36,991 bases of DNA from Halorubrum sp. Hd13 (lineage in GTDB: Archaea; Halobacteriota; Halobacteria; Halobacteriales; Haloferacaceae): NCBI RefSeq assembly GCF_002252755.1, contig NZ_NHOY01000019.1, positions 1 through 36,991 on the forward strand. Direction: 5' to 3'. A model generated the notes under the pieces. The model saw nothing but the letters and a program-made list of their open reading frames with translations. It had not been told where the DNA came from and made no database searches. Positions 5,071-33,101 of this stretch are shown here, piece by piece. How positions within the stretch are numbered: the first letter of the stretch is position 1; every line of letters begins with the position of its first letter. The translations under genes and the position numbers were made by a program.

Positions 5071-5111
5071 GAGGGGTGAATTGAAGTGTGTTCTGCGGGT
5101 CGTACTCGGTA

Positions 5112-7911: not shown

Positions 7912-7912
7912 C

Positions 7913-8665: not shown

Positions 8666-8772
8666 TGACGCCGCCCGCCCGCGACGGACTCGCCGTCCCG
8701 CGCGGGCGGGACGCGAACGACGGACCGCTCGCGACGGCGCGCGCGGTCAGGACCCGCGGAGGCGGCGAGTAG
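8665..8772 (+). CDS. Possible 35-residue ORF between arlH and arlI
   Basis: An ATG overlaps the arlH stop (ATGA) and the frame runs 35 codons to a TAG three bases before the arlI ATG. The product is Arg/Gly/Ala-rich with no recognisable domain. It could couple translation from arlH to arlI across a 110-base spacer, or it may be chance in GC-rich DNA, where stop codons are scarce. No function is claimed. Confidence 0.2.
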   Translation: MTPPARDGLAVPRGRDANDGPLATARAVRTRGGGE

Positions 8773-8775
8773 ACC

Positions 8776-10449: not shown

Positions 10450-10457
10450 ACCGACCG

Positions 10458-10478
10458 ATGAGCGAGGCTGACGTGTAA
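10458..10478 (+). other. Mini-ORF of six codons overlapping the arlJ start
   Basis: ATG at 10458 opens a six-codon reading frame (MSEADV) whose TAA shares its last base with the arlJ ATG (TAATG). It could assist reinitiation at arlJ; equally it may be accidental. There is no evidence that a peptide is made. Confidence 0.15.
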
Positions 10479-15375: not shown

Positions 15376-16161
15376 CTACATGTGCGCGATGTTGAGTTCG
15401 AGTTCGTTCGCCGCGCCGAGCAGGAGGTCCGGGATCTCGGACTCGAGTCGATCCCCGTTCAGGCGGTGCGAGGGGCCGGTGACGCTGAGCCCGCCGATCA
15501 CCTCGCCGTCCGGGTCGCAGATCGAGACGCCGACGGCGTGGGTACCGCGGAGCGACTCCTCCCTGTTGAAGAAGTAGCCGCGCTCGCGTCCCGCCTCGAT
15601 CTCCGCGCGGAGCTCGTCCGGGTCGGTGACGCTGTGTTCCGTCACCGGCTCGAACGACATGCGTTCGAACATGTCGGACAGTTCGGGCTCCGGAAGCTCG
15701 GCGAGGATCGCCTTCCCGGCCGACGCCGCGTACAGCGGAATGCGGCTGCCGATCCCGGGGTCGGTGCGGACCGCCCGGTCCCCGACGGCCCGCGCGAGGT
15801 ACACCGCCTTCCCGTGTTCCTCGACGAAGAACTGGGCGCGCTCCCCGGTGACCTCCGCGATCTCCTCGACCTTCTGGCGCACGAGGTCGTACCCGCGGTA
15901 GCCGCTCCGTGCGGTGACGCCGATCTCGAGGAACCGGAGGCCGACGTGGTACCCCCCGTCGCGCCGGACGACGTAGCCGAGGTCCGCTAGGGTGTGGAGG
16001 TGTCGGTGCACCGTGCTCTTCGCGTAGTCGAGTTCGGCCGCCAACTCGGCCAGGGACGCGCCGTCGTTCTCGACGAGGCGTTGCACGACGTCGAACATCG
16101 TTTCGGCGGTCCGTACCGCGTCTTTTTCCGGCGTATCGGCGTCCTTCGGCCCTCCGTTCAT
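15376..16161 (-). CDS. IclR-family transcriptional regulator
   Basis: A 261-residue DNA-binding regulator. A winged helix-turn-helix occupies about 15-75 (LAAELDYAKSTVHRHLHTL is the recognition region). An IclR effector-binding domain follows, with the usual GSRIPLYAASAGKAILAEL and RGYFFNREE segments. IclR proteins sense small organic acids and control catabolic operons. The ATG at 16161 is preferred over a GTG at 16167. A TATA box at 16182-16189 is about 25 bases upstream of the ATG, fitting a leaderless start. The gene is divergent from an MFS carrier, and a palindrome lies next to its own TATA box. It is the only regulator in the catabolic island. Confidence 0.92.
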   Translation of the reverse strand: MNGGPKDADTPEKDAVRTAETMFDVVQRLVENDGASLAELAAELDYAKSTVHRHLHTLADLGYVVRRDGGYHVGLRFLEIGVTARSGYRGYDLVRQKVEEIAEVTGERAQFFVEEHGKAVYLARAVGDRAVRTDPGIGSRIPLYAASAGKAILAELPEPELSDMFERMSFEPVTEHSVTDPDELRAEIEAGRERGYFFNREESLRGTHAVGVSICDPDGEVIGGLSVTGPSHRLNGDRLESEIPDLLLGAANELELNIAHM

Positions 16162-16181
16162 ACTCACGCGTCGGACTCCAA

Positions 16182-17667: not shown

Positions 17668-17673
17668 TACTTT
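17668..17673 (+). promoter_or_regulatory. TATA-like box of the D-2-hydroxyacid dehydrogenase gene
   Basis: TACTTT lies about 28 bases before the ATG at 17699, just after the 23-base tandem repeat. The spacing supports that ATG over an in-frame TTG at 17672. Confidence 0.4.
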
Positions 17674-17698
17674 GTCGACCGACCGCGACGCGTGGAGC

Positions 17699-18658
17699 AT
17701 GTCCACTATCGACGTCGCGGTGCTCGACCACGACGCGCACGGAATCCCGGCGGCCGACTACGCGGAGATTCTCGACCGACGCCTCCCCGACCGGGAGGTG
17801 CGCCTCGCCGCGACGCCCGACGACCACCGGCGCTACCTGCGGGAGGCCACCGTCGTTGCCGGGAAGTACATCGACGCCGAGGAGGTGGCGGCCGCCGAGA
17901 ACCTGCGGCTGTTCGCGTGCAACGCCGCCGGCGTCGACCACCTGCCGCTGGACGCGCTCGCCGATCGCGGCGTCGCGGTGACGAACGCGTCGGGCGTCCA
18001 CGGCCCGAACGTCGCCGAGCACGTGCTCGGCTGGGTGCTGACGTTCGCGCGGCGGCTCGACGAGGGGCGCCGCCGCCAGCGGCGCCGGGAGTGGCGCCGA
18101 TTCCAGTCGTTCACGGAACTCGCCGGCAGCACCGTGACCGTCGTCGGCCTGGGTTCGATCGGCGAGACCGTGGTCGAGCGGTTCGAGGGGTTCGACGTCG
18201 ACACGGTCGGCGTCCGCCACACCGTCGAGGACGGGGGACCGACCGACGACGTGGTCGGCTACGACGACCTCGCGGACGTCCTGCCGGGGACCGACGTGCT
18301 CGTCCTCGCGTGTCCGCTCACGGAGACGACAGAGGGGCTGATCGGCGAGCCCGAGCTCGACGCGCTGCCGACGGACGCGATCGTCGTCAACGTCGCGCGC
18401 GGCGGCGTGATCGACACGCCGGCGCTCGTGGACGCGCTGCGGGCGAACGCGCTCCACGGCGCCGCGCTCGACGTCACCGACCCCGAGCCGCTCCCGAGCG
18501 ACCACGACCTGTGGGGGTTCGAGAACGTCTTCCTGACGCCCCACGTCGCGGGCCACACGCCGAGGTACTGGGAGCGGTGCGCCGACGTCCTCGTCGAGAA
18601 CCTCGAGCGGGTCGCCGAGACCGGCGAGTACGAGGGACTGAGAAATCAGGTCGTTTAA
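17699..18658 (+). CDS. D-isomer-specific 2-hydroxyacid dehydrogenase
   Basis: A 319-residue NAD(P)-dependent enzyme interconverting a 2-oxoacid and a D-2-hydroxyacid. The Rossmann motif is GLGSIG (150-155). Catalytic residues are at the family positions: R234 (NVARGG), E263 (DPEP) and H282 (TPHVAGH). An Asp about twenty residues after the glycine motif is part of FDVDTVG, so cofactor preference is uncertain. Possible roles include glyoxylate/hydroxypyruvate reductase or D-lactate dehydrogenase. With a LarA-like racemase and an L-2-hydroxyacid oxidase nearby, it supplies the D-specific side of 2-hydroxyacid metabolism. It converges on gcdH with a 33-base gap. Confidence 0.9.
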   Translation: MSTIDVAVLDHDAHGIPAADYAEILDRRLPDREVRLAATPDDHRRYLREATVVAGKYIDAEEVAAAENLRLFACNAAGVDHLPLDALADRGVAVTNASGVHGPNVAEHVLGWVLTFARRLDEGRRRQRRREWRRFQSFTELAGSTVTVVGLGSIGETVVERFEGFDVDTVGVRHTVEDGGPTDDVVGYDDLADVLPGTDVLVLACPLTETTEGLIGEPELDALPTDAIVVNVARGGVIDTPALVDALRANALHGAALDVTDPEPLPSDHDLWGFENVFLTPHVAGHTPRYWERCADVLVENLERVAETGEYEGLRNQVV

Positions 18659-18691: not shown

Positions 18692-19852
18692 CTACTGGTA
18701 CGCCTGTATCCCCGTGATGTCCTCGCCGAGGATCAGCGTGTGGATGTCGTGGGTGCCCTCGTAGGTGTAGACGGTCTCCATGTTCGCCATGTGACGCATC
18801 GGCGAGTAGTCGGCGGTGATCCCGTTGCCGCCGAGCATCTCGCGGGCGATCCGCGACTGGTCGCGCGCCATCCGGACGTTGTTGCGCTTGGCCATCGAGA
18901 CGTGTTGCGGGCGCATCTCGCCCGCCTCCTTGAGGTCGGCGAGCCGGTGGGCGAGCAGCTGCGCGAGCGTGATCTGCGTCGCCATCTCCGCGAGCTTCTG
19001 CTGTTGCATCTGGAAGCCGCCGATCGGCTTCCCGAACTGCTCGCGGTCAGTGGCGTACCCCTTGGCGACCTCGAAGCAGTCCTGCGCGGCGCCGACCGCG
19101 CCCCACGCGATGCCGTAGCGGGCCTGCGTCAGGCACGACAGCGGCCCCTTCATCCCCTCGACGCCGGGGAGGCGGTTCTCGGCGGGGACGCGGACGTCCT
19201 GGAGGCTGATCTCGCCAGTGATCGACGCGCGCAGGCTGAGCTTCTCGTCGATCTTGTTGGTGGTGACGCCGTCGCGGTCGGTCTCGACGAGGAACCCGCG
19301 CACGGGGTTCCCGTCCTCGGTGCGGTCCTTCGCCCAGACGACGGCGACGTCCGAGATCGGGGAGTTCGTGATCCACGTCTTCGAGCCGTTGAGCACGTAG
19401 CCGTCACCGTCGGCCTCGGCGCGCGTCTCCATCGCGGAGGGGTTCGAGCCGTGCTCGGGCTCGGTGAGCCCGAAGCAGCCGACCGCCTCGCCGGTGCCGA
19501 GCTTCGGCAGCCACTCGTCTTTCTGCTCGTCGCTTCCGAAGGCGTGGATCGGGTACATCACCAGCGCGCCCTGCACGCTCGCCATCGAGCGGAGCCCGGA
19601 GTCGCACGCCTCCAGCTCGCGCATCAGCAGGCCGTACGCCGTCTCGCTGACGCCGGGGAGACCGTACCCCTCAAGATTCGGCGCGTAGAATCCCATCTCG
19701 CCCATCTTCGGGATGAGCTCTTCCGGGAACGTGCCGTCGATCCAGTGCTGGCCGATGTCGTCGACCTCGCCGTCGATGAACGACCGGGCGGAGTCGACGA
19801 GCATCCGCTCCTCCTCGGACAGAGTCGACTCCATGTCGAAGTAATCGAGCAT
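18692..19852 (-). CDS. gcdH: Glutaryl-CoA dehydrogenase
   Basis: This 386-residue FAD enzyme of the acyl-CoA dehydrogenase superfamily probably converts glutaryl-CoA to crotonyl-CoA plus CO2. The C-terminal block TYEGTHDIHTLILG with catalytic base E365 is diagnostic for the glutaryl-CoA type. The substrate-carboxylate binding set known from human GCDH (E87, R94, S98, recalled numbering) is matched by E81, R88 and S92 in RELEACDSGLRSMAS. The flavin-contacting segments GCFGLTEPEHGSNP and TWITNSPISD are intact. The ATG at 19852 has a TATA box 26 bases upstream. A long in-frame upstream extension is Arg-rich and non-coding. Other GcdH-like enzymes act on related dicarboxyl-CoAs. Confidence 0.9.
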   Translation of the reverse strand: MLDYFDMESTLSEEERMLVDSARSFIDGEVDDIGQHWIDGTFPEELIPKMGEMGFYAPNLEGYGLPGVSETAYGLLMRELEACDSGLRSMASVQGALVMYPIHAFGSDEQKDEWLPKLGTGEAVGCFGLTEPEHGSNPSAMETRAEADGDGYVLNGSKTWITNSPISDVAVVWAKDRTEDGNPVRGFLVETDRDGVTTNKIDEKLSLRASITGEISLQDVRVPAENRLPGVEGMKGPLSCLTQARYGIAWGAVGAAQDCFEVAKGYATDREQFGKPIGGFQMQQQKLAEMATQITLAQLLAHRLADLKEAGEMRPQHVSMAKRNNVRMARDQSRIAREMLGGNGITADYSPMRHMANMETVYTYEGTHDIHTLILGEDITGIQAYQ

Positions 19853-19980: not shown

Positions 19981-21198
19981 TCAGAACCCGTCGGTCCCCT
20001 CGAGAAGGTGCGCCTCGACGACGTCCATATCGAGCTCGATCCCGAGCCCGGGGGCCTCCGGCACCGCGATTCGCCCGTCCTCGATCAGCGGCTCGTCGCG
20101 CGCCAGCAGGTCGTCCCACCAGTCGACCTCCAGCGCGTGGTACTCCAGCAGGTCGAAGTTCGGCGTGGCCGCGCCGAGGTGGACGCAGGCCATCGTCCCC
20201 ACCGGGCTACAGACGTTGTGCGGGGACATCGGCATGTAGTTCTCCTCGGCGCGGTCGGCGATCCGCGTCGTCTCCGTGAGCCCGCCCACCGTCGCCGGGT
20301 CGGGGGTGACGACGTCGACGCCGTGCTCGTAGATCAGGTCCGACAGCTCGAAGACGCGGAAGCGGTTCTCGCCGGTCGCGACCGGGGTGCGCGTCGCCTT
20401 CGTCACCTCCTTCTGGGCGTCCATGTTCTCCGGCGGGATCAGGTCCTCTAACCACATCAGGTCGAACTCCTCTAACTCGTGGGCGAGCCGCTTCGCGCTC
20501 TCGACGGAGTAGTCCCAGTGGCAGTCGAACGCGAGGTCGACGTCGTAGCCGATCTCCTCGCGCACGGCCGCGACGATTTCCTTCTTCTCCCGGATCGCCG
20601 CGTTCGTCAGGCGCCCGTTGTACGGGTCGTTCTCGTTGTCGGCCGGCAGGTCGAGGTCGAACTTCAGCGCCGAAAAGCCCATGTCGGTGACGCGGGCGGC
20701 CTCGGCGGCGTACGCCTCGGGGGAGTACGCCTCGGCGTCGGCGTAGGCGGTCGCGCCGTCCTCGACCGCGTACGCCTCGCCGGCGTGGCAGTCGCAGTAG
20801 AGCCGGACCTCGTCGCGGTACTTCGAGCCGAGCAGCTGGTAGACGGGGAGGCCGAGGATCTTCCCGGCGGCGTCCAACAGCGCGATCTCGATGCCGGAGG
20901 CCGCGGTGACGACCTTCCCGGTCGTGCCGCCGTGGCCCGACATCTCTTGGAAGATGTACCGAACCAGGCGCTCGACGTCGAGGGGGTTCTCGCCGACGAG
21001 GAACCGGTTCGTGTACTCGACGAGCTCCGGGACGCCGCCGCCGCGGTACGCCTCGCCGATGCCGGTGACGCCGGCGTCGGTCTCCACTCTGATCAGGTTC
21101 CACTCGAAGTTCCCCTCGACGACGCAGGCGTCGAGGCCGGTGATCTGTACGTCTCGGTCCGGGTCGCGGGTGTCGATCTGGTCTGAGTAGTCTCGCAT
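19981..21198 (-). CDS. Enolase-superfamily acid-sugar dehydratase (galactonate/gluconate dehydratase type)
   Basis: This 405-residue enzyme of the mandelate racemase subgroup probably dehydrates an aldonic acid to a 2-keto-3-deoxy acid. K179 (ALKFD) is the catalytic lysine. The metal ligands are D225, E251 and E277. The DxH signature at D225-H227 (DCHWDY) is typical of acid-sugar dehydratases. The general acid/base pair is D300 and H327 (MSPHN). An N-terminal capping domain covers about 18-135. Haloarchaeal xylonate, arabinonate and gluconate dehydratases belong to this group; which sugar acid is used is not resolvable. It follows the second enolase-superfamily gene by 28 bases and is surely co-transcribed. 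Confidence 0.88.
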   Translation of the reverse strand: MRDYSDQIDTRDPDRDVQITGLDACVVEGNFEWNLIRVETDAGVTGIGEAYRGGGVPELVEYTNRFLVGENPLDVERLVRYIFQEMSGHGGTTGKVVTAASGIEIALLDAAGKILGLPVYQLLGSKYRDEVRLYCDCHAGEAYAVEDGATAYADAEAYSPEAYAAEAARVTDMGFSALKFDLDLPADNENDPYNGRLTNAAIREKKEIVAAVREEIGYDVDLAFDCHWDYSVESAKRLAHELEEFDLMWLEDLIPPENMDAQKEVTKATRTPVATGENRFRVFELSDLIYEHGVDVVTPDPATVGGLTETTRIADRAEENYMPMSPHNVCSPVGTMACVHLGAATPNFDLLEYHALEVDWWDDLLARDEPLIEDGRIAVPEAPGLGIELDMDVVEAHLLEGTDGF

Positions 21199-21226: not shown

Positions 21227-22336
21227 TCAGTCGTCTCTGAATCGCTCCAGCGCGTCCTCGTCGAGCGGCACGCCGTGGCCGGGGCGGTCGGGGAGGTCGA
21301 TCATCCCGTCGTCGCCGGGCGTCACGGGGTCGGCGACGACGTCGTCGAACGCCTTCACGTCCATGTCGCGGTAGAAGTACTCCACCCAGAGGCCGTTCTC
21401 GATGGCCCCGAGCAGCGACGCGTGGATGTTCCAGTTGTAGTGGGGCGCGATGGGGATGTCGTACGCCGAGGCGTGGTTCGCGATCTTCAGCCACTCCGTG
21501 ACCCCGCCGCAGACGGTGACGTCGGGCTGGAGGATCGTCGCCGCGCCCGTGTCGGCGAGGCGGGCGAAGTTGTGCCGCGTCCCCTCCAGTTCGCCTGTGG
21601 CGACGGGGTAGTCGATCCCGTCGTTCACCTCGGCCATCGTGTCGACGCGGTCGATCATCACGGGCTCCTCGATGAAGTACGGGTCGTACGGCTCGAACGC
21701 CCGGCAGTTGCGGAGCGCCTCGGTGCTGGAGCCCCAGACGCCGTTGGCGTCGAGCAGGAGGGTACGCTCGTCGCCGATCTCGTCGCGCACCGCGGCGACG
21801 CGCTCGGCCTCCTCGTCGGCCGACAGGCGCCCGACCTTCATCTTCACGACGTCGTGGCCCTCGTCGAGGTAGCGCCGCATCTCGTCACGGAGCGCCTCGT
21901 GGCCCTTGTCGTCGCGGTAGTAGCCGCCGCTGGCGTACGACGGGACCGACTCCGAGTGCCCGCCGAGCAGCTTGTGGAGGGGCATGTCTGCCGCCTTCGC
22001 CTTCGCGTCCCAGAGCGCGATGTCGACCGTGGAGATGGCGCGCAAGAAGAGACCGGTCCGACCGATCTGGACGTTCCCCTCGTACATCTCGTGCCACAGG
22101 CGCTCGGTGTCGCGGGGGTCCTCGCCGACGAGGATCGGTTCGAGCAGCGACTCGACCGCGTCGGCGATGAGGCCGGCCCCCTCGTACCCCAGCGAGTAGC
22201 CGACCCCCTCGTGACCGGTGTCCGTTCGCACGTACGTGATCGCGTGGTCCCGGTAGGTGAGCGTCCGGTTGGAGAAGGAGACGGGCGACTCCAGCGGCAG
22301 CTTGATCGGGAACGACTCGACTTCGGTTATCTGCAT
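21227..22336 (-). CDS. Mandelate racemase/muconate lactonizing enzyme family protein
   Basis: A 369-residue enolase-superfamily enzyme. The active site contains the KxK pair K165/K167 (VVKMKVG), metal ligands D196, E223 and E249, and the D272/H299 dyad (APHYNWNIH). This set marks the mandelate racemase subgroup, which includes racemases and acid-sugar dehydratases. It is clearly a different specificity from its downstream neighbour (KMK versus KxD; no DxH). The start at 22336 follows a weak TATA-like CTACTTGTA about 27 bases upstream, which is flanked by 5-base inverted arms ACGGG/CCCGT (22354, 22371). It heads a two-gene operon and is divergent from the LarA-like gene. Confidence 0.87.
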   Translation of the reverse strand: MQITEVESFPIKLPLESPVSFSNRTLTYRDHAITYVRTDTGHEGVGYSLGYEGAGLIADAVESLLEPILVGEDPRDTERLWHEMYEGNVQIGRTGLFLRAISTVDIALWDAKAKAADMPLHKLLGGHSESVPSYASGGYYRDDKGHEALRDEMRRYLDEGHDVVKMKVGRLSADEEAERVAAVRDEIGDERTLLLDANGVWGSSTEALRNCRAFEPYDPYFIEEPVMIDRVDTMAEVNDGIDYPVATGELEGTRHNFARLADTGAATILQPDVTVCGGVTEWLKIANHASAYDIPIAPHYNWNIHASLLGAIENGLWVEYFYRDMDVKAFDDVVADPVTPGDDGMIDLPDRPGHGVPLDEDALERFRDD

Positions 22337-22459: not shown

Positions 22460-23812
22460 ATGGAGTTCCCCGACCGATCCGACGTCGACGGGCTCATCGA
22501 CCCGCAGCCGCTCCCGGGGTTCGCGCGGGTGCGGTACGAGCCGGAGACCGAACGCCTCGACGACCCCGTCGGGGCGGCGCGCGAGGCGCTCGGCTCGCTC
22601 GACCTCGACGGCCTCCCCGCGGGCGCGACCGTGGCCGTCGGGGTCGGCAGCCGCGGGATCGACCGGATCGACGAGGTCGCGGCGGCGGTCGTCGACGAGG
22701 TCGCCGAGCGCGGGTTCGACCCCGTGGTCGTCCCCGCGATGGGCAGCCACGGCGGCGCGACGGCCGAGGGACAGCGCGAGGTGCTGGAGGCGCTCGGGAT
22801 CACGGAGGAGACGGTCGGCGCCCCGATCGACGCGCGGATGGCCGCCGAAGCGCTGGCGACGGCGCCCGTGGGCGACGTCGACATGCCGGTGTACTTCTCG
22901 GAGGCGGCGCTCGCGGCCGACGCCGCCCTCGTCGTGAACCGCGTGAAGGCCCACACCAACTTCACCGGGCCGATCGAGAGCGGGCTCGCGAAGATGACCG
23001 TCGTCGGGCTCGGCAAGCAGCGCGGCGCCAAGTCGTTCCACTCGACGGCGATCGCCGAGGGGTACGTCGAGACGCTGACCGCCGCGCTCGACGTTATCGA
23101 GCGCGAGACGCCGCTGATCGGCGGGATCGCGCTCGTCGAGAACTTCGAGGAGGAGGTCGGGCACCTAGCGGCCGTCCCCGCGGGGTCGTTCCTCGACCGC
23201 GAACCGGAGCTGTTGGAGCGCGCGTACGAGGAGATGCCGACGCTCCCGATCGACGACGTCGACCTCCTCGTCATCGACGAGATCGGCAAGGAGATATCCG
23301 GCGCCGGGATGGACACGAACGTCATCGGGCGCTACCGCGTCCTCAACGCGCCCGACCCCGAGACCCCCGACATCGACCTCATCTACGTGCGGGGGCTGAC
23401 CGAGGCGACGAAGGGGAACGGCAACGGGATCGGCCTCGCCGACCTCACCCGGCGGGCCGCGGTCGACCAGCTCGACCTGAAGAAGACGTACGCGAACGCG
23501 CTCACGAGCGGGTCGCTCTCGAAGTCGAAGCTCCCCGTGGTGGCGCCCGACGACGAGTTCGCGCTCCGGACCGCGCTGGCGGCGCTCGGGGGGTACGACC
23601 CCGAGACCGTCCGGATCGTCTGGGTCCAGAACACGCAGGACCTCGGGGAGCTCCTGGTCTCCGACGCCGCCGTCGACGACCTCCCGGAGGCGGCGACGGT
23701 GGTCGGCCGCGAGACGGTGGGGTTCGACGACGGGACGGCGGGGTTCGAGGACGCGGCGGGTGAGGTCGACGCCGAACCGGCGACCGACCCGTCGGGCGGT
23801 CCGGACGCATAG
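22460..23812 (+). CDS. LarA-like (DUF2088) 2-hydroxyacid racemase-family protein
   Basis: A 450-residue member of the lactate racemase superfamily. In LarA a nickel-pincer nucleotide bound to a lysine takes hydride from the C2 of a 2-hydroxyacid. Candidate equivalents of LarA residues (H108, H174, K184, H200, recalled) are H97 (MGSHGG), H165 (RVKAHT), K178 (GLAKM) and H194 (KSFHS). The K-to-H spacing of 16 is the same. The core NRVKAHTNFTGPIESG is typical of the broad DUF2088 group, whose members racemize or epimerize varied 2-hydroxyacids or remain unstudied. The C-terminal ~25 residues are an acidic, probably disordered tail. The LarB, LarC and LarE cofactor-making genes are not in the window. 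Confidence 0.85.
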   Translation: MEFPDRSDVDGLIDPQPLPGFARVRYEPETERLDDPVGAAREALGSLDLDGLPAGATVAVGVGSRGIDRIDEVAAAVVDEVAERGFDPVVVPAMGSHGGATAEGQREVLEALGITEETVGAPIDARMAAEALATAPVGDVDMPVYFSEAALAADAALVVNRVKAHTNFTGPIESGLAKMTVVGLGKQRGAKSFHSTAIAEGYVETLTAALDVIERETPLIGGIALVENFEEEVGHLAAVPAGSFLDREPELLERAYEEMPTLPIDDVDLLVIDEIGKEISGAGMDTNVIGRYRVLNAPDPETPDIDLIYVRGLTEATKGNGNGIGLADLTRRAAVDQLDLKKTYANALTSGSLSKSKLPVVAPDDEFALRTALAALGGYDPETVRIVWVQNTQDLGELLVSDAAVDDLPEAATVVGRETVGFDDGTAGFEDAAGEVDAEPATDPSGGPDA

Positions 23813-23901: not shown

Positions 23902-24690
23902 ATGGACCTACAGATCGACGGGAACGCGGCCCTCGTCACGGCGTCGTCCAGCGGACTCGGCAAGGCATCGGCGAAGGCGTTGGCCCGCGAGGGCGTCGAC
24001 GTCGTCATCAACGGCCGCGACGAGGAGCGGCTGGCGGCCGCGAAAGAGGAGGTCGAGGCGGTCGCGACCGGCGAGGTCGTCGCGCAGTCCGCCGACCTGA
24101 CCGACGCCGACGAGGTCGCGGCGCTCGTGGAGACGACCGTCGACGAGTTCGGCACGATCGACCACCTGGTGACGAGCGCGGGCGGCCCGCCCTCGGGCGC
24201 ATTCCTCGACACCGACGACGAGGACTGGCAGCACGCCTACGACCTGCTCGTGATGAGCGTCGTCCGGCTGGCGCGGGAGTCGTACCCGCACCTCAAGGAG
24301 GGCGACGGCGGCACGATCGTCAACATCACCTCCCGGAGCGTGAAGGAGGCAATCGACAGCCTCGTGCTGTCGAACGCCGTCCGGATGAGCGTCATCGGGT
24401 TGGAGAAGACGCTCTCGAAGGAGTTCGCGCCGGAGGTGCGCGCGAACGCCGTCCTGCCCGGCCCCCACGAGACGAGCCGCATCCGCGACCTCGTCGAGGC
24501 CGCCGTCGAGCGCGGCGACTACGACTCCTACGAGGAGGGGCTCGACGACTGGGCCGGGAACCCGCTGGAACGCATCGGCGACCCGATGGAGCTCGGCAAC
24601 ACCGTCGCGTTCCTCTCGTCGCCGAAGTCCGGCTACGTCAACGGCACCGCGCTCCCGATCGACGGCGGCTCGACCGGAGCGAACTTATGA
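23902..24690 (+). CDS. SDR-family protein with replaced catalytic Tyr and Lys
   Basis: A 262-residue Rossmann-fold protein of the FabG-like SDR group. The cofactor motif is TASSSGLG (13-20), where the first Gly of TGxxxGxG is Ala. S144 sits at the catalytic Ser position, but YxxxK is replaced: aligning on VIGLEK places S157 at the Tyr site and R161 at the Lys site. The rest (TSAGG, PGPHET, YVNGTALPIDGG) is intact, so this is a real gene of a divergent subgroup rather than a broken one. It may use other chemistry or a different base. GTTTTCA at 23871 is a weak TATA. Its stop overlaps the cupin start by 4 bases (ATGA), so the two are coupled. Confidence 0.88.
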   Translation: MDLQIDGNAALVTASSSGLGKASAKALAREGVDVVINGRDEERLAAAKEEVEAVATGEVVAQSADLTDADEVAALVETTVDEFGTIDHLVTSAGGPPSGAFLDTDDEDWQHAYDLLVMSVVRLARESYPHLKEGDGGTIVNITSRSVKEAIDSLVLSNAVRMSVIGLEKTLSKEFAPEVRANAVLPGPHETSRIRDLVEAAVERGDYDSYEEGLDDWAGNPLERIGDPMELGNTVAFLSSPKSGYVNGTALPIDGGSTGANL

Positions 24691-25034
24691 ACCCGGTCCC
24701 GTTCGACGAGGCGGAGACGTACGAGCCCGAGGAGGGCTGGCGGCGCGTGGCGATGGCGGGCAGCGACCGGTTCTCCTTCGAGTGGTTCGAGAAGCCGCCG
24801 GGCCACAGCTCGCCGATGCACGACCACGAGAACGAGCAGGTGTGCCTCTGTCTGGAGGGCGAGCTCACGGTCGCGACCGAGGACGACTCGGTCACGCTCC
24901 AGAAGAACGACTCCGTCCTGCTGGAGTCCAACGAGGCCCACCGGGTCGAGAACACCGGAGACGAGCGCGCCGTCGGCCTCGACGTGTTCGCGCCCGGTCG
25001 CTCGTTCGACTTCTGGACGGACCGCGAGGAGTGA
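24687..25034 (+). CDS. Small cupin-domain protein
   Basis: A 115-residue single-domain cupin. Metal-ligand candidates are H45, H47 (HDHENEQ) with E50 or Q51, and H85 (EAHRVEN). Such proteins can be small metal-dependent enzymes (dioxygenases, isomerases, pectin-degradation KdgF-type) or sensors. It overlaps the SDR gene by 4 bases and the FAH gene follows after 21 bases, placing it inside the SDR-cupin-FAH unit. A KdgF-like role on an unsaturated sugar acid is possible but only an inference. Confidence 0.85.
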   Translation: MNPVPFDEAETYEPEEGWRRVAMAGSDRFSFEWFEKPPGHSSPMHDHENEQVCLCLEGELTVATEDDSVTLQKNDSVLLESNEAHRVENTGDERAVGLDVFAPGRSFDFWTDREE

Positions 25035-25055: not shown

Positions 25056-25877
25056 ATGAAGTACCTCGCACGCACGGCGACCGGCGACCCCCTGCTCGGC
25101 GGCGACGAGGGGTACGTCCCTCTCGGCGCCGTCGAACCGGATCTGGAGAGCGTCCGCGACGCGCTCCCCCGGGCGGCCGCGGGGACGCTCGGCGACGTCG
25201 CCGACGCGACCGCCGACCCCGTCCCGGCGGCGGACGTGACGTTCGGCGCCCCCCTGGCGTCGTTCGGGAAGCTGTGGGGGATCGGGCTGAACTACGAGGA
25301 GCACGCCGGCGACCTCGACGAGGAGCGCCCGACGGAGCCGGCGAGCTTCATGAAGCCGTCGTCGGTCCTGACGGGGCCCGGCGGTCCGATCCGACTGCCG
25401 CCGGAGTCGCAGAGCGAGCGGGTGACCGCCGAGGCGGAGCTGGCCGTCGTCATGGGCCGAACGTGCCGGAACGTCGACGAGGGCGACGTCGACGACGTGA
25501 TCGCGGGGTTCCTGCCCGTGATCGACATGACCGCCGAGGACGTCCTCCAGCGGAACCCGCGCTTCCTCACGCGGGCGAAGAGCTACGACACGTTCCTCGT
25601 GCCCGGCGCCGCGCTCGCGGTGCCGGAGGAGCCGCTCGACCTGGAGCCGCTCTCGGTGCGGACCGAGGTCAACGGCGAGGTGCGGGCGGAAAACGAGATC
25701 CGGAACATGCTGTTCCCGCCCGCGGAGATCGTCTCGTTCCACTCCGACGTGATGACGTTAGAGCCGGGCGACCTGTTCAGCACGGGGACGCCCGGCGCGG
25801 CGCCCATCGACCCCGGCGACGAGGTGCGGGCGGTCGTCGAGTCGATCGGCGCGGTCGACGCGCCGGTGACGCGGTAG
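25056..25877 (+). CDS. Fumarylacetoacetate hydrolase (FAH) family enzyme
   Basis: A 273-residue FAH-fold enzyme. The divalent metal site is E126 and E128 (AEAEL) with D157 (VIDMT). K175 (RAKSYDTF) and the late STGTPGAAPIDPGD segment match the family core. In haloarchaea FAH-family proteins serve sugar-acid routes, as 2-keto-3-deoxyxylonate dehydratase or as hydrolase of a 2,4-diketo-3-deoxy acid. Either fits next to two acid-sugar dehydratase-like enzymes and an SDR. It may instead be an acylpyruvate hydrolase. It is the last gene of the SDR-cupin-FAH unit; its 3' end runs into a 16-base tandem repeat. Confidence 0.9.
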   Translation: MKYLARTATGDPLLGGDEGYVPLGAVEPDLESVRDALPRAAAGTLGDVADATADPVPAADVTFGAPLASFGKLWGIGLNYEEHAGDLDEERPTEPASFMKPSSVLTGPGGPIRLPPESQSERVTAEAELAVVMGRTCRNVDEGDVDDVIAGFLPVIDMTAEDVLQRNPRFLTRAKSYDTFLVPGAALAVPEEPLDLEPLSVRTEVNGEVRAENEIRNMLFPPAEIVSFHSDVMTLEPGDLFSTGTPGAAPIDPGDEVRAVVESIGAVDAPVTR

Positions 25878-25997: not shown

Positions 25998-26426
25998 ATG
26001 TACCGCGTACTGCTCCCCGTCGGCGGGGACGTCGAGCACGTACTGGCCGCGGCTGACGCCGTCGCGTCGCTGCCGAACGCCGCCGACGAGGTCGAGGCGG
26101 TGATACTCAACGTCTACGAGGGGTTCGAGGTCAGCGGCGAGGGCGGCCGCGTCGACTCCGAGGACGTGTGGAACGAGGAGAACTACCCGGAGGCCGTCGG
26201 GACCGTCGAGGACCGGCTGGCGGAGGCCGGCGTCGAGACGGCCAGGCGGCGCGAGCACGGCGACCCCGCCGAGACGATCATCGAGGTCGCCGCGGAGCTC
26301 GACGTCGACAACATCACGATGAGCGGGCGGCGCCGGAGCCCGACCGGCAAGATGCTGTTCGGGAGCACGACCCAGTCGGTGCTGCTCGCGGCCGACCGTC
26401 CGGTGACGGTGATCCTCGACGAGTAA
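25998..26426 (+). CDS. Universal stress protein (UspA family)
   Basis: A 142-residue single Usp domain. The C-terminal ATP-binding loop (G-2x-G-9x-G-S type) is present as SGRRRSPTGKMLFGS followed by TQSVLLAADRPVTVI. Usp genes often sit beside TRAP transporters; TeaD regulates the TRAP transporter TeaABC in Halomonas. The TAXI-TRAP genes follow 111 bases downstream under their own promoter. A role in tuning that transporter is an inference from position. Confidence 0.93.
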   Translation: MYRVLLPVGGDVEHVLAAADAVASLPNAADEVEAVILNVYEGFEVSGEGGRVDSEDVWNEENYPEAVGTVEDRLAEAGVETARRREHGDPAETIIEVAAELDVDNITMSGRRRSPTGKMLFGSTTQSVLLAADRPVTVILDE

Positions 26427-26537: not shown

Positions 26538-27671
26538 ATGGCAGATAACTCAGTCAATCGGCGCAAGTTCCTGTACGGCACGGGCGCGGTAGGTATCACC
26601 GGACTCGCGGGTTGTGCCGGCGGCGACGGCGGAGACGGCTCCGACGGATCCGACGGCGGCGACGGCGAGGACGGCGGCGACGGAATGGACGGCGACGACG
26701 GCGAGGACGGCTCCGACGGCGGGAGCCAAGACCTCTCGCTGCGCGTCGGGACGTCGGCCGGCGGGACGCAGGACGTCGGACTCGCCGTCGAGCGCGCGGT
26801 GAGCCAGGAGAGCGACACCCTCGAGTATTCGACGATCGAGAGCCCGGGCTACATCGGGACGATCCGGCGGATGGCGAACAACCAGTTCAACGCCGGCATC
26901 ACCGACAACAACTCGCTGTCGAAGGCGCTCGACGACAGGGGGGCGTTCGAGGAGCAGGGCGTCGAGCGCATCCCGCAGTACGGCTTCTACGCGTTCCCGT
27001 ACAGCATCTACGTCATCGCCCGCGACGGCACGGGGATCGAGACGTTCGACGACCTCGCCGGCGCGAACGTCTACCCCGCCGAGCCGGGATACTCGACGCG
27101 CGCGACGACGCTCGACGTCTGGTCGCAGGAGCCGACGGCGGACGTCTACGAGGAGATGAACATCCAGAACATGGGCGTGGGCGACGCGCCCGGCGCGATG
27201 GAGGAGGGCAACATCGACGCCAGCATCGCGTACGGGACGCCCGGCGTGCGGTACACCGGATTCGTCCAGGAGATCGCCTCCCGCATCGACGTCCACTACG
27301 TGGAGCCGACGGACGCGCTCCGCGAGTCCGCCGAGTCGTACGCGGGCGCCGGGACCGGCACCACGAGCTACGACGACTGGTCCATCGCGGGCACGGACAT
27401 CGGCACCGACGAGGTGTTCCACTGGAACCTCGAGGTCAACTACACGTTCAACCCCGAGGCGAACCCGGACGCCGTCTACGAGCTGTGCCGGGTCGTCGAC
27501 GAGCACAACGACGTCGTCAACGAGGGCGAAGAGCAGTTCAACGACTTCGAGTCCACCGCGGACATGCTCAGCTCGGCCCGGTCGAACATCCCGGTCCACC
27601 GCGGCGCCGTGCAGTACTACCGGGACAACGACGCGTGGGACGACAACCTGACCGAAGGCGACAGCGCCTGA
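26538..27671 (+). CDS. TAXI-type TRAP transporter solute-binding lipoprotein
   Basis: A 377-residue extracellular binding protein. The N-terminus has a Tat signal (NRRKFLYG) and a lipobox (LAGC), so it should be exported folded and lipid-anchored. A Gly/Asp-only style linker of about 40 residues tethers the binding domain. The domain starts with LRVGTSAGGTQDVG, the TAXI signature region, and contains FYAFPYSIYV and DLAGANVYPAEPGYSTR as in TAXI family proteins. TAXI systems carry C4-C5 dicarboxylates, glutamate or 2-oxoglutarate in known cases. The permease follows after 156 bases containing two hairpins. Confidence 0.93.
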   Translation: MADNSVNRRKFLYGTGAVGITGLAGCAGGDGGDGSDGSDGGDGEDGGDGMDGDDGEDGSDGGSQDLSLRVGTSAGGTQDVGLAVERAVSQESDTLEYSTIESPGYIGTIRRMANNQFNAGITDNNSLSKALDDRGAFEEQGVERIPQYGFYAFPYSIYVIARDGTGIETFDDLAGANVYPAEPGYSTRATTLDVWSQEPTADVYEEMNIQNMGVGDAPGAMEEGNIDASIAYGTPGVRYTGFVQEIASRIDVHYVEPTDALRESAESYAGAGTGTTSYDDWSIAGTDIGTDEVFHWNLEVNYTFNPEANPDAVYELCRVVDEHNDVVNEGEEQFNDFESTADMLSSARSNIPVHRGAVQYYRDNDAWDDNLTEGDSA

Positions 27672-27768: not shown

Positions 27769-27831
27769 ATGACACGACCGACCACACCCGGGCGGACGAA
27801 CATCCTCGCTAACGGACGCTGGCGCCAATGA
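27769..27831 (+). CDS. Possible 20-residue leader ORF coupled to the TRAP permease
   Basis: ATG at 27769 opens 20 codons ending in a TGA that overlaps the permease ATG (ATGA). It lies about 40 bases after the TATA-like box. It may couple translation into the permease, or be chance. The peptide has no recognisable features. Confidence 0.25.
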   Translation: MTRPTTPGRTNILANGRWRQ

Positions 27832-29819
27832 GCACAGAAACCGCTTCAACGGAGCCCGAATCCGGACTCCTGCGGGGGCTCGACGTCACGGTCACGGCGG
27901 CGGCGCTGCTGTTCTGGGCCGGGGTGCTCTACTGGGCCCAGACCCAAGCCATCTCGCAGGTGCGGTTCGCCACCGCGTTCGTCGGTGGCATCCTGACGGT
28001 GTACGCGCTCAACGAGACGCGGCTCGCCATCAGCGACGGCGACTGGATCGACGGCGCCGTGCTGATCCCCGCGTCGCTGGCGCTGATGACCGCGTCGGCG
28101 TTCTTCGCGGTCAACTTCCAAGACGTCTACCTCCAGCGGCAGGGGTACGCGCTCGAACACGAGTACATGCTCGCGCGGCTCGTCATCCTCTCGCTGATGT
28201 ACCTCACCTGGCGCGAGTTCGGCAACGTGTTCCTCGGGCTCGTCATCGGCGTGTTCGCGTACGCGATGTACGGGAACCTCGTCCCGGGCGTGCTGGGACA
28301 CGCGGGGATGAACCAGGCGACGCTGCTGCAGGCGACGGTCACGGACCTGTACGGCTTCTACGGGAGCCTCACGCAGATCACGGCCTCGTGGATCGCGCCG
28401 TTCCTGCTGTACGCCGGGCTGCTGTTCGCGTACGGGGCGTTCGACCTCATCCTGCGGGTCGCCATCGTGGCCGCGAAGTACATCGAGTCCGGGATCGCCC
28501 AGACCGCCGTGCTCTCCTCGGCGGTCATCGGTTCGATCAACGGCTCGTACACCGCCAACGCGGCGATGACGGGCTCGTTCACCATCCCGACGATGCAGGA
28601 GGCCGGGATGAAGGGCCACCGCGCGGCGGGCATCGAAGCGGTCGCGTCCACCTCCGGGCAGGTGCTCCCGCCCGTGATGGGGGCGTCCGCGTTCGTGATG
28701 GCGTCGTACCTCGGCGTCCCGTACCTCAGTATCGTCGTCGCCGGCCTCGTGCCGGCCGCCATCCTTGTCGTCTCCATCTCCATCGCGGTCCACTACCTCG
28801 CCATCTCCGACGCCAGCAGCCAGGAGATGGAGTTCTCCGAGTTCTTCGACGAGGAGCTCTCGACGGAGAAGAAGGTGTTCGAGGCGCTCCGCTTCGGCGT
28901 CCCGTTCGCGATACTCATCTACCTGCTCGGGATCGCCCAGTACACGGTGATGACGTCCGCGCTGTACACGGTCGTCGCGATGATGCTCACGGGGGTACTC
29001 ATGCCGCCGCTCCAGCGGGTCGTCGACAGCTCGGGCACCGGTCCGGGCGAGGAGTTCGTCACGCAGGTGAAAAACACCGTTCACGGGATCCGGCGGGGTG
29101 CGATCATCCTCGCGCCGATCGCGATCATCCTCGTCGTCATCAGCGGCGTCGTGAACCTGTTCGGCACGACCGGCATCCCGGCGAAGATCGCGCTGCTGCT
29201 CATCAACATCTCGGGCGGCGTCCTGCTGTTCGCGGTCCTGCTCGGGATGGCCGTCGCCATCCTGATGGGCGTCGGCATGCCGACGGTCGCGGCGTACGTC
29301 ATCGTGGCCATCCTCATCGTGCCGACGTTCGTCTCCGACTTCAACGTCGCTCCCATCACGGCCCACTACACGATGTTCTACGCCGCCATCCTCGCGGGGA
29401 TCACGCCGCCGGTGGCGACCGCGGCAGTGATCGCGGCGGGGATCGCGGAGGCGAACTTCTGGCGGACCTGCGGGGCCGCGATCCGGATCGCCGCGCCGCT
29501 GTTCGTCCTCCCGGTCGCGTTCGTCTACAACCCCGACATGATCTCGATGGATCCGGGACTCAACACGCTGTACGTCGGGCTGCTCGTGCTGCTCGGCGCG
29601 GTGGCGATCATCTACGGGCTGAACTACCCGTTCAAGATGCGCCCCGGGAGGAAGATCGGCACGCGGGCCCTGCTCGCGACGCTCGGCGTCCTCATCATGG
29701 CGTACCCGAGCAACACCGCGAAGATCGCCGGGATCGCCGTCTTCGCCGCCGTCTTCGTCGCGGAGAAGGTGATGATCCGCGGCCTCAAGCTGCCGTTCGG
29801 CAGGGGGGCGAGCCAATGA
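27828..29819 (+). CDS. TRAP transporter fused permease (4TM + 12TM)
   Basis: A 663-residue polytopic membrane protein combining the small (DctQ-like, about 20-165) and large (DctM-like, about 170-620) TRAP subunits, the usual form in TAXI systems. Typical sequences are SAVIGSINGSYTANAAMTGS and TSGQVLPPVMGASAFVMASY in the first half, and MGVGMPTVAAYVIVA and APITAHYTMFYAAI in the second. These two inverted halves form the Na+-coupled transport path. Extra hydrophobic helices close the C-terminus. Its stop overlaps the start of a small one-helix protein by 4 bases. Confidence 0.95.
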   Translation: MSTETASTEPESGLLRGLDVTVTAAALLFWAGVLYWAQTQAISQVRFATAFVGGILTVYALNETRLAISDGDWIDGAVLIPASLALMTASAFFAVNFQDVYLQRQGYALEHEYMLARLVILSLMYLTWREFGNVFLGLVIGVFAYAMYGNLVPGVLGHAGMNQATLLQATVTDLYGFYGSLTQITASWIAPFLLYAGLLFAYGAFDLILRVAIVAAKYIESGIAQTAVLSSAVIGSINGSYTANAAMTGSFTIPTMQEAGMKGHRAAGIEAVASTSGQVLPPVMGASAFVMASYLGVPYLSIVVAGLVPAAILVVSISIAVHYLAISDASSQEMEFSEFFDEELSTEKKVFEALRFGVPFAILIYLLGIAQYTVMTSALYTVVAMMLTGVLMPPLQRVVDSSGTGPGEEFVTQVKNTVHGIRRGAIILAPIAIILVVISGVVNLFGTTGIPAKIALLLINISGGVLLFAVLLGMAVAILMGVGMPTVAAYVIVAILIVPTFVSDFNVAPITAHYTMFYAAILAGITPPVATAAVIAAGIAEANFWRTCGAAIRIAAPLFVLPVAFVYNPDMISMDPGLNTLYVGLLVLLGAVAIIYGLNYPFKMRPGRKIGTRALLATLGVLIMAYPSNTAKIAGIAVFAAVFVAEKVMIRGLKLPFGRGASQ

Positions 29820-30091: not shown

Positions 30092-31564
30092 CTACTCGAA
30101 CCACTCAGCGGCGCGCTCGACGTCTTGGGGGATGTGGTACTCCCGCTCGCAGACGTCGTCGAGGTACGAGCGCAGCTCCGGCGCGAACTCGGGATGCGCG
30201 CAGCGGTCGACGATCAGCTCCGCGCGCTCGACCGGCGAGAGCCCGCGCACGTCGGCGACGCCCTGCTCGGTGACGAAGACGTCGACGTCGTGTTCCGTGT
30301 GGTCGACGTGGAAGGTCTGCGGGACGACCCGCGAGACCGCGCCGTCGTTCAGCGCGGAGGGGAGCGCACACACCGTGATCAGCGAGTTCCGGTTGAAGTC
30401 GGCCGAGCCGCCGACGCCGTTTATCATGCGTTCGCCGCGGACGTGCGTGGAGTTAACGTTGCCGTAGAGGTCGAACTCGATGGCGCTGTTCACGCCGATC
30501 ACGCCGAACTGGTCGATGAGCCCCGGGTGGTTGGAGACGTCGGCCGGCCGGAGCACCACGTCCTCGGCGTAGCGCTCGACGTCCTCGAAGAGCCGCGCCT
30601 GCCCCTCGTCGGTGAGCGCGAGCGACGTGGCGCTCGCGGCCGCCAGCCCGCCTTCGTCGAGCATGTCGAAGAGCCCGTCCTGGATGAGCTCGCCGAAGTA
30701 GACGACCTCGCGGTCGCCGAAGTCGAGCGCCTGGAGCTCGCCCATCAGGGCGTTGCCGAGCGATCCGACGCCGAACTGGAGGTGGACCGCGTCGTCGAAG
30801 ACGGGGGAGCGATCCAGCTCCTCGCGGAGGAACGAACCGAGGTTGGCGGCGATCGCGAGGTCGTCGTCCGTCGGGTCCCGGAAGGTGTACGTCGAGTCGG
30901 GAATCTCCGTCTCGACGACGCCCGCAAGCTTCTCGGGGTCGAAGCCGACGTGTGCGGTGCCGATTCGCTCGCCGGGGTCGGAGAGGGGGATCGGTCCGCG
31001 GTCCGGCGGCGCGTCGGGGCGGTAGACGTCGTGGAGCGCCTGCAGTTCGAGCGGCTGGTGGCGGTTCAGCTCGACGTACAGCTCGTCGGCGGCCTCGACG
31101 AAGGCGGGCACCTGCCCGAGCGACGTGGAGGGGACGAACCAGTCCTCGCCGACCGCGACCGCCTCGACGACGGCGACGTCGGGGTCGACGAGCCCGCCGT
31201 ACTGGACCTCGTCGCCGATCGAGGAGGCGTTACGGTCGCTGAAAGCGATCTCGCGGGCGTCGGTCTTCTCGCGGGCGACCCGCGACGACTGGTAGGAGAA
31301 CCGGCGCTCGACCTGCCCGGAGCCGACGAGGTCGACGTCGATCTCGTCGCCGACCTTCCCGCTGGCGACCAGCGTGAGCGACAGGTCGCGGGGCGACGAC
31401 GCCAGCGCGAGCGGGATCGCCTTCGGGTAGCCGACGCTGCCGAAGCCGCTCGTGAGCACCGTCGCGTCGGCGTCGACCGCGGCGGCCGCCGCCTCGGCGT
31501 CGACGATCGGCACGTCGCCGTGGAGCCGGCGCTCGACCGGCCGCCGGTCGGGACCGCGGCTCAT
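30092..31564 (-). CDS. Acetyl-CoA hydrolase / CoA-transferase family protein
   Basis: A 490-residue class I CoA-transferase-fold enzyme of the Cat1/acetyl-CoA hydrolase family. The CoA-thioester-forming glutamate is E292 in YFGELIQDG, close to E294 of the acetate CoA-transferase AarC (recalled). Other marks are the early TSGFGSVGYPKA, the FGVGSLGNALM glycine loop, and the C-terminal TEQGVADVRGLSPVERA. It moves CoA between carboxylates (acetate, succinate, propionate, possibly glutarate) or hydrolyses the thioester. In this setting it could activate an imported acid for gcdH. The ATG at 31564 is preferred; the frame stays open upstream without stops but reads as Arg-rich non-coding sequence. 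Confidence 0.88.
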   Translation of the reverse strand: MSRGPDRRPVERRLHGDVPIVDAEAAAAAVDADATVLTSGFGSVGYPKAIPLALASSPRDLSLTLVASGKVGDEIDVDLVGSGQVERRFSYQSSRVAREKTDAREIAFSDRNASSIGDEVQYGGLVDPDVAVVEAVAVGEDWFVPSTSLGQVPAFVEAADELYVELNRHQPLELQALHDVYRPDAPPDRGPIPLSDPGERIGTAHVGFDPEKLAGVVETEIPDSTYTFRDPTDDDLAIAANLGSFLREELDRSPVFDDAVHLQFGVGSLGNALMGELQALDFGDREVVYFGELIQDGLFDMLDEGGLAAASATSLALTDEGQARLFEDVERYAEDVVLRPADVSNHPGLIDQFGVIGVNSAIEFDLYGNVNSTHVRGERMINGVGGSADFNRNSLITVCALPSALNDGAVSRVVPQTFHVDHTEHDVDVFVTEQGVADVRGLSPVERAELIVDRCAHPEFAPELRSYLDDVCEREYHIPQDVERAAEWFE

Positions 31565-31773: not shown

Positions 31774-32982
31774 TTAAACGGTCACCTTCGCCGCGAGCCG
31801 CTCCGCGATGTGCTCGCCGAACGGCAGCGAGGAGGTCAGTCCGGGGGAGACGGCGTTGAGGACGTGGACGGCGTCCTCGCGCTCGACGAACAGCGGCTCT
31901 TTCACCAACTCGCCGTCGGCGCTCACGAGCTGCGCGCGGATCCCGGCGTAGCTCTTCCGGAGGTCCTCGGCGCGCACGTCGGGGACGAGCTTCTGGGAGG
32001 CCGCCGCGAACTTCTCCTTCCGGTACGACTTGTTCAGCTCCGCCCACGCGACCGAGAGCATCAGCGGCGAGGCGAGCAGCCGCCGGAAGCCGCCGTAGGT
32101 GAGCGTCTCCAGCAGTTCGCGGGGGTCGACGTCGGTGTTGTCGTACGCCTCGCGGCCGAACGCGAGGACCGCGTTCGGGCCGACGATCACCTTCCCGTCC
32201 GTGCGGCGGGTGTAGTGGACGCCGAGGAAAGGGAGCTCGGGGTTCGGCGTCGGGTAGATCATCGTCTCGCAGAGCTCGGCGCGCTCGGGCCGCACCTCGT
32301 AGTACTCGCCGCGGAACGGGACCACTTGGTACTCCTCGCCGACGCCGACCTGGTGGGCCAGCGTGTCGGCGTGGAGCCCGGCGGCGTTGACGAGGGAGGA
32401 GACCTCGAAACGGCCGTTGCTCGTGTCGAGCCGGTACCCCTCGGCCGCCTCCTCGATCCGCGAGACCTCGTAGCCCGTATAAATGGTAACCCCGAGGTCA
32501 CGGGCCTCGCGGGCGAGCGCGTAGACGTACTGCTCGGAGTCGACGGAGGCGGCCTCCGGGGCGTGGAACGCGGCCTGGCCCTCCGCGTGCGGCTCGTGCT
32601 CGCGGATCGCCTCGCGGGAGTCGAGCAGCTCGTAGGCGACGCCGTTGGCCTCGGCCCGCTCGGCGAGGTCGTCGAGCCGCGCCTCCTCCTCGTCGTCCGT
32701 CGCGACGACGAGGACGCCCAGCTCCTCGCAGGGGACGTCGTGCTCCTCGCAGTACGCCTTCATCCGGGCGGTGCCCTCGGTGGCGAACCGCGCCTTCTTC
32801 GAGCCCGGCGGGTAGTTGAACCCGGGATGGAGCACGCCGGAGTTCCGACCGCTCTGGTGGGCGGCGAGGTGGTGTTCCTTCTCTAGGACGGCGACGTCGA
32901 GGTCGGTTCGCTCGGCGAGGTGTTTGGCGACCGACAGGCCGACGCAGCCGCCGCCGACGATGGCGACGTCGTGGCGCATCAT
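31774..32982 (-). CDS. lhgO: L-2-hydroxyglutarate oxidase/dehydrogenase
   Basis: A 402-residue FAD enzyme of the DAO superfamily oxidising L-2-hydroxyglutarate to 2-oxoglutarate, probably passing electrons to the membrane quinone pool. The FAD motif is GGGCVG (10-15). LhgO signature blocks are present: HQSGRNSGVLHPGFNYPPGS, PFRGEYYEVRP, IYPTPNPELPFLGVHYTRR, KVIVGPNAVLAF and GIRAQLVSADGELVKEPLF. The match to E. coli LhgO from memory is extensive. Start MM at 32982/32979 follows a TATA-like box at 33012-33017. It is upstream of the CoA-transferase on the same strand. Related enzymes may use other L-2-hydroxyacids. Confidence 0.92.
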   Translation of the reverse strand: MMRHDVAIVGGGCVGLSVAKHLAERTDLDVAVLEKEHHLAAHQSGRNSGVLHPGFNYPPGSKKARFATEGTARMKAYCEEHDVPCEELGVLVVATDDEEEARLDDLAERAEANGVAYELLDSREAIREHEPHAEGQAAFHAPEAASVDSEQYVYALAREARDLGVTIYTGYEVSRIEEAAEGYRLDTSNGRFEVSSLVNAAGLHADTLAHQVGVGEEYQVVPFRGEYYEVRPERAELCETMIYPTPNPELPFLGVHYTRRTDGKVIVGPNAVLAFGREAYDNTDVDPRELLETLTYGGFRRLLASPLMLSVAWAELNKSYRKEKFAAASQKLVPDVRAEDLRKSYAGIRAQLVSADGELVKEPLFVEREDAVHVLNAVSPGLTSSLPFGEHIAERLAAKVTV

Positions 32983-33011
32983 TGCGTGTCCGACGGATCC
33001 GGGAGCGGTGG

Positions 33012-33017
33012 CATATA
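33012..33017 (-). promoter_or_regulatory. TATA-like box of lhgO
   Basis: The minus strand reads TATATG about 32 bases before the lhgO ATG. Confidence 0.4.
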
Positions 33018-33101
33018 GGTGCCGTTCGGCGCGGGCCGGCGGGGGGTCGCGGCGCCGTCTCCGAGCGGTCCCGCCGCCGCCCCTCGGGGCCACGGTAACG
33101 C

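Follow-up and report, generated by a model that had tools for sequence, protein, structure and literature searches.

One of the closest described systems is LarA, the lactate racemase of Lactiplantibacillus plantarum (PDB entries 5huq and 6c1w), whose residues R75, H108, H174, K184 and H200 are named here in the L. plantarum numbering used in the available part of PMC11770544. GntE, a D-gluconate 2-epimerase represented by LarAH19 and LarAH20, is described in excerpts of another paper as a further isomerase of a sugar acid that depends on the nickel pincer cofactor (NPN) and that occurs in a sugar-pathway context (PMC7583248). Table 1 of that paper, as available in the same excerpts, contains 13 tested LarA homologues; group 22, the family treated below, is not among them, although its group numbering may differ from that of NCBIfam. 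On the side of pathways, the non-phosphorylative Route III of L-rhamnose, L-fucose and pentoses, according to the accessible sections of PMC6336799, has genes for an acid-sugar dehydratase, an SDR and an FAH enzyme side by side, and the neighbouring SDR and FAH turn 2-keto-3-deoxy sugar acids into pyruvate and lactate or glycolate. In the literature that we found, partly in the form of excerpts, no activity is assigned to group 22 and no haloarchaeal LarA homologue is described, while a search for deoxyhexose pathways in Haloferax returned nothing of use.

The window, by which we mean the whole analysed stretch of 36,991 nucleotides from Halorubrum sp. Hd13, belongs to a draft genome (G000) of 3.8 Mb in 130 contigs. 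At positions 22460..23812 on the plus strand it carries an open frame with an ATG start at 22460 and a stop at 23812, whose product of 450 aa had originally been predicted to be LarA-like. This label is correct, and the family has already been named by a public model, since the curated profile that fits the protein best is NCBIfam NF052515, "nickel pincer cofactor-dependent isomerase, group 22", with 488.8 bits (cut-off 400, E 1e-146) and coverage of profile positions 1-388 of 392. As a family member the protein shows no difference from this model: the match is full-length and the invariant residues are the same. The model itself carries no assigned activity, so that the protein is a known kind of enzyme from a named branch without an assigned activity. 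DUF362 is the sole Pfam match (27.8 bits, cut-off 24), and Lar_N (PF09861) was not found in the window protein at E 0.01, whereas close homologues pass its cut-off of 23.3 (for example, 24.6 bits in G163); phmmer and profile searches against PDB sequences gave nothing useful. The closest named matches of the gene come from Halorubrum. The window's own genome contains a second group-22 gene (C1:63921-65099), and no canonical LarA was found in it with Lar_N.

The fold leads to the same family. An AlphaFold2 model of the protein, built from 47 sequences of the window and named loci, reached a mean pLDDT of 91.8 and a pTM of 0.87. Foldseek gave 1381 matches in the PDB; the 17 chains with E <= 0.001 are without exception of the LarA type, lactate racemase and malate racemase among them. 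With VIA-align, 12 LarA-fold entries scored Z 18.4-20.4 and the next entry only 6.5; one of the 12, 4nar, is described in its title only as a Thermotoga maritima protein. The L. plantarum lactate racemase has the same fold as the window protein (Z 18.6), in spite of only about 11-12% identity over the aligned part. When the group-22 profile was compared with that of 30 canonical haloarchaeal LarA proteins, the result was E 5.4e-6 with a probability of 85.7. GntE differs from the window protein in that it belongs to another group and has other neighbours.

In the joint alignment, R65, H97, H165, K178 and H194 correspond to R75, H108, H174, K184 and H200 of LarA, and this R/H/H/K/H set is matched in 47/47 group-22 rows and 30/30 canonical rows. 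The four residues H97, H165, K178 and H194 had already been put forward as LarA equivalents from the window alone, and the alignment places them exactly there. Judged by sequence, the two catalytic histidines, the lysine anchor, the nickel-ligand histidine and the phosphate arginine would thus be common to both proteins. The spacing of 16 residues from K178 to H194 is that of canonical LarA, while the stretch between H165 and K178 is three residues longer. No equivalent of D72, the LarA aspartate for the NPN ribose, is present; a gap stands at this position (GSRG against TDVTR). H97, H165, K178 and H194 are invariant in both group-22 alignments, one of 20 sequences (A1) and one of 47 (A2), the latter made of the window and 46 of the 80 named loci (L160 and L212, whose reported match range contains a stop, were excluded). 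H165, K178 and H194 are also identical in 94/94 haloarchaeal group-22 genes; H97 was counted in A1 and A2 but not in this larger set, because some gene starts there are too short. From the alignment and the modelled fold, we infer that R65, H97, H165, K178 and H194 meet in one pocket. If the protein works as LarA does, the cofactor would be bound to K178 as a thioamide, with H194 as the nickel's fourth ligand. The two residues H97 and H165 would in turn take and give back the proton of the C2 hydroxyl group, and the C2 hydride would pass to the cofactor and back, leaving carbon 2 of a 2-hydroxy acid inverted.

The gene lies in a metabolic island. On the minus strand, there are two enolase-superfamily dehydratases with MR_MLE_N/C domains, one at 21227..22336 that resembles L-talarate/galactarate dehydratases (NF047820, 242.7 bits, below its cut-off of 500; closest PDB entry 2pp0) and one at 19981..21198 that resembles galactonate/mannonate dehydratases (NF010624, 198.9 bits, below 311; closest PDB entry 2qq6). 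Neither reaches any NCBIfam cut-off, so neither can be given a substrate. Downstream of the isomerase and on its strand, an SDR-like protein (23902..24690; matched by profiles of SDR families), a small cupin (24687..25034; Cupin_2, 62.4 bits) and an FAH-family hydrolase (25056..25877; FAA_hydrolase, 167.7 bits) follow each other; the last is a candidate acylpyruvate or 2,4-diketo-3-deoxyaldonate hydrolase. Next come a universal stress protein (25998..26426, plus strand; Usp, 61 bits), a TAXI-type TRAP solute receptor (26538..27671, plus; NMT1_3, 66.6 bits) and a fused TRAP transporter permease (27828..29819, plus; TIGR02123, 368.5 bits). The island further includes an IclR-family regulator (15376..16167, minus; IclR_C, 107 bits), an acyl-CoA dehydrogenase (18692..19852, minus; Acyl-CoA_dh domains) and a protein of the acetyl/succinyl-CoA transferase family (30092..31513, minus; AcetylCoA_hyd_C, 129.9 bits), which with a longer start matches NF053853 at 478 bits, the cut-off being 500. 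The two redox enzymes on which the original prediction was built are both there: an NAD-type D-2-hydroxyacid dehydrogenase at 17672..18658 on the plus strand (start possibly at 17699; 2-Hacid_dh_C, 1.8e-51; NF041369, 246 bits, below 400), and an L-2-hydroxyglutarate oxidase family protein at 31774..33093 on the minus strand (NF008726, 430 bits, cut-off 299).

The adjoining dehydratase, SDR and FAH genes recall Route III, with several differences. The window SDR lacks the YxxxK motif, which reads SxxxR, and in every aligned sequence of the window type from the window clade the motif is replaced (SNxVR); this SDR-like protein may therefore not be an ordinary dehydrogenase. The FAH hydrolase reads H..D instead of H..E, at a position where the FAH enzymes described in the available part of PMC6336799 have Glu. 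It has a PDB relative in L-2,4-diketo-3-deoxyrhamnonate hydrolase (8gsr, 1e-34), while HpcE-type enzymes score better. The window cluster has an isomerase in addition, and neither a sugar dehydrogenase nor a lactonase could be recognised in it. The absent Tyr-Lys pair of the SDR and the Asp in place of Glu in the FAH enzyme make the hydrolytic route uncertain.

Which of these genes are true partners was judged from 97 haloarchaeal stretches including the window, 94 of them with a group-22 match, in which genes were called and clustered; L139 (a near-duplicate), L145 (a placeholder), L146 (where no group 22 was expected) and L097 (overlapping L049) had been left out beforehand. The 94 group-22 genes fall into four clusters of 33 (that of the window), 39, 12 and 10, and the window clade has a tree support of 1.0. 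Within three genes of the isomerase, members of this clade have dehydratases, the cupin and the acyl-CoA dehydrogenase in 18/33 loci each, the SDR in 17/33, IclR in 14/33 and FAH in 13/33; over the whole fetched locus, FAH is present in 19/33 and TRAP genes in 16/33. The gene set recurs between families while its order is rearranged. The conserved partners are thus the two enolase-superfamily dehydratases, the SDR-like protein, the cupin, the FAH hydrolase and the TRAP transporter.

The redox enzymes, which had been proposed as the partners of a racemase, do not have this constancy: the D-2-hydroxyacid dehydrogenase lies within three genes in 1/33 loci and anywhere in the locus in 12/33, and the L-2-hydroxyglutarate oxidase was found in 3/8 downstream stretches fetched to look for it. 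What stands of that interpretation is the LarA fold, the active-site residues and an NPN pathway in the genome, discussed below; the choice of partners is weakened. A subclade of eight genes, at L112:8438-13206 and seven similar loci, does lie beside a different redox enzyme, a YdiJ-like FAD/Fe-S D-2-hydroxyacid dehydrogenase of 1016 aa (8/33 within three genes), and neither a dehydratase nor FAH was seen in the gene orders of this subclade. A racemase of 2-hydroxyglutarate that links the island's oxidase with a D-2-hydroxyglutarate dehydrogenase would make use of these enzymes, and such an activity (HGR) is known in the LarA family, according to excerpts of PMC7583248. The NF008726 match of the window oxidase and the fact that YdiJ is the best family match of the dehydrogenase beside the eight members agree with this reading. 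We consider it very improbable, because that YdiJ match, at 530.8 bits, is far below its cut-off of 1350, the oxidase recurs in 3/8 of the searched stretches, and the conserved neighbours are sugar-acid enzymes.

An NPN enzyme needs its cofactor, and the cofactor genes larB, larC and larE had been reported as not seen. This holds within the window; genome-wide, larB is intact on contig C13 (217.8 bits, cut-off 175), and larC is split into two fragments, each of which runs up to a contig end (C38 and C68). No larE above its cut-off was found in the genome, but contig C105 starts about 20 codons into a frame that matches the larE start of sister species, with the syntenic flank adjoining, and the 14 other members of the genus that were sampled all have larE. 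A genome devoid of Lar cofactor genes, the finding that was to count against the original prediction, is therefore not what the draft contains: larB is whole, and contig ends truncate both larC and larE. The final 60 bases of C13 recur at the right end of the window (36720-36779), inside a GMP synthase gene, which makes the two contigs neighbours and puts larB on the contig next to the window, by our own reckoning roughly 44 kb from the isomerase. Matches to TIGR00268 in this genome were rejected as larE: of those read in frame, the ones at L004 and L005 resemble NAD synthetases, and the one in the window is the GMP synthase.

The association extends beyond this genome. In a sample of 243 haloarchaeal genomes of the order, searched for larB at E <= 1e-30 and for larE at E <= 1e-20, group 22 occurs in 98, larB in 185 and larE in 189. 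larB is present in 94/98 genomes with group 22 compared with 91/145 without it, and larE in 95/98 compared with 94/145; Fisher's test gives p about 1.6e-10 for each, with kinship ignored, and relatedness inflates such p-values. The NPN pathway is thus supported as being statistically tied to the group-22 gene. The group-22 genomes without larB include the incomplete G089 and G096, and the larE exceptions include the window's own genome with its contig gap. There is also physical linkage: in G155, a window-type cluster is followed directly by larE, larB and larC, and G135 has larB and larE next to a group-22 gene from a different clade (no larC match was found in G135). G107 (L100), which is 99% complete, and G160 (L281) keep the isomerase without a larB, larE or larC match, which counts against the reading as an NPN enzyme. 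Separately, both group 22 and canonical LarA (judged by a strong Lar_N match) are missing from 46 of the 185 larB-bearing genomes, which may have a different NPN client or use larB in some other way.

These data also bear on whether the protein is an NPN enzyme at all, or a DUF362-type protein of some other function. The latter reading draws on DUF362 being the only Pfam match, on the placement of DUF362 and the LarA domain in one clan (PMC11770544, in the part available), on the two genomes that have the gene without larB or larE, and on the non-conserved D72. It is nevertheless very improbable in our estimate, as close homologues score above the Lar_N cut-off, all strong fold matches are LarA (though the PDB may hold no DUF362 structures), and larE lies in the operon of some homologues, in addition to the co-occurrence with larB and larE. 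That the gene product is an NPN-dependent C2 isomerase working in a sugar-acid pathway, no single substrate being implied, is likely.

The isomerase gene is dispensable within its pathway. The first dehydratase (E <= 1e-140) is present in 51 genomes, and group 22 occurs in 39/51 of them versus 59/192 genomes without the dehydratase. When only first dehydratases with an identity of about 80% or higher are counted, 27 genomes remain, of which 22 have group 22 and 5 do not. NPN genes (larB or larE) accompany group 22 in 20/22 of these genomes, compared with 1/5 of those without it (p 0.004, kinship uncorrected); across all 51 dehydratase genomes the figures are 37/39 and 7/12 (p 0.005, kinship again uncorrected). 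The first dehydratase and NPN genes also occur together in seven genomes that lack group 22. A clean case of absence is G151 (L277), where the island is collinear with that of its congener G107 (L100) at about 88% DNA identity and the isomerase gene alone is missing. The pathway can therefore exist without the enzyme, which fits an accessory isomerase. Neither larB nor larE was listed for G151; G107, G160 and G151 belong to one genus, and all three genomes lack both genes. In G049 and G123, the clusters without the isomerase contain a homologue of the L-2-hydroxyglutarate oxidase between the SDR and the dehydratase; these homologues, at L279:7664-8848 (80%) and L282:8644-9849 (77%), stand mid-cluster.

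Group 22 is also found in many bacteria. In Heyndrickxia coagulans, a run at L219:2624-9983 encodes a GntP permease, LarE (370.7 bits, cut-off 150), a PrpR-like regulator, a D-threonate-kinase-like protein (327.5 bits, below its cut-off of 450), PdxA, the group-22 isomerase (562 bits) and a small membrane protein, which, from its motifs, we take to be a nickel transporter. Five further Bacillota loci (L191, L193, L180, L195 and L224) share with it the D-threonate-kinase-like gene, pdxA and the group-22 isomerase. Several such runs contain larE, and L195 has larE, larB and larC. Over the 80 named loci, some of which are not full length, PdxA-like and kinase-like genes were each counted at least 9 times, larE at least 4, larC at least 2 and larB at least once. 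D-erythronate and D-threonate differ at C2 only, and for this reason a tetronate epimerase is predicted in Bacillota; the gene context suggests that group 22 there is a nickel-dependent enzyme of this kind. Other LarA homologues have been observed to epimerise 4-deoxy-threonate/erythronate (PMC11770544, in the part available). Among the haloarchaea, the 10-gene clade has a PdxA-family gene within three genes of the isomerase in 9/10 loci and a DUF1537-type kinase in 2/10.

For the window, the conserved partners point to a pathway in which a sugar acid would be taken up by the TRAP transporter and dehydrated by an enolase-type enzyme, followed by an SDR-like step and by FAH-type hydrolysis of a carbon-carbon bond that would yield pyruvate and a small 2-hydroxy acid. 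Inversion at C2 would let this salt-loving archaeon use both forms of the sugar acid or of the hydroxy acid derived from it. We give an even chance to the isomerase acting on the imported aldonate as a C2 epimerase, which would make both epimers available to a dehydratase. Less probably, the enzyme would act after the hydrolase as a racemase of the released 2-hydroxy acid, namely lactate from 6-deoxyhexonates or glycerate from hexonates, feeding a dehydrogenase or oxidase specific for the D or the L form. This reading refines the idea in the original prediction and is, in our judgement, rather unlikely. It stays live because of the oxidase in the middle of the isomerase-free clusters L279 and L282 and because of the eight loci with the YdiJ-like dehydrogenase. 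The D-2-hydroxyacid dehydrogenase of 12/33 window-clade loci agrees with it, as does the 39-gene sister clade, where FAH is near the isomerase in 12/39 loci and a MOFRL-type glycerate kinase within three genes in 11/39; glycerate and lactate are, moreover, known substrates of the LarA family (PMC11770544, available part). Against this, neither redox enzyme is a constant neighbour, and the Bacillota partners, a D-threonate-kinase-like protein and PdxA, lead one to expect neither lactate nor glycerate.

Epimerisation of the sugar acid itself can be extended to the family as a whole. As a tentative proposal, to which we give slightly less than even chances, group 22 would be the sugar-acid branch of the NPN isomerases: C2-epimerases of polyhydroxy acids that serve as optional modules in several unrelated acid-sugar pathways. 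In Bacillota and some haloarchaea, with a threonate kinase and PdxA as neighbours, they would exchange D-erythronate and D-threonate; in Halorubrum and relatives, with paired enolase dehydratases and FAH as neighbours, they would epimerise aldonates; and the module would be lost where NPN synthesis is absent. The family is common, being present in 98/243 haloarchaeal genomes as well as in the bacteria mentioned, and its neighbourhoods yield short, testable lists of substrates: tetronates for Bacillota, and aldonates, glycerate and lactate for haloarchaea. If true, a tetronate or deoxyaldonate epimerase would be a new reaction for NPN chemistry, and such an epimerase would explain the use of larB, larC and larE in many haloarchaea. 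Deletion of the gene is feasible, since Halorubrum and Haloferax relatives can be cultivated. In the window, the metabolic island is directly preceded by archaellum and chemotaxis genes (3162-12214), including CheC, a FlaC-FlaD/E fusion, a KaiC-like ATPase, T2SSE and T2SSF.
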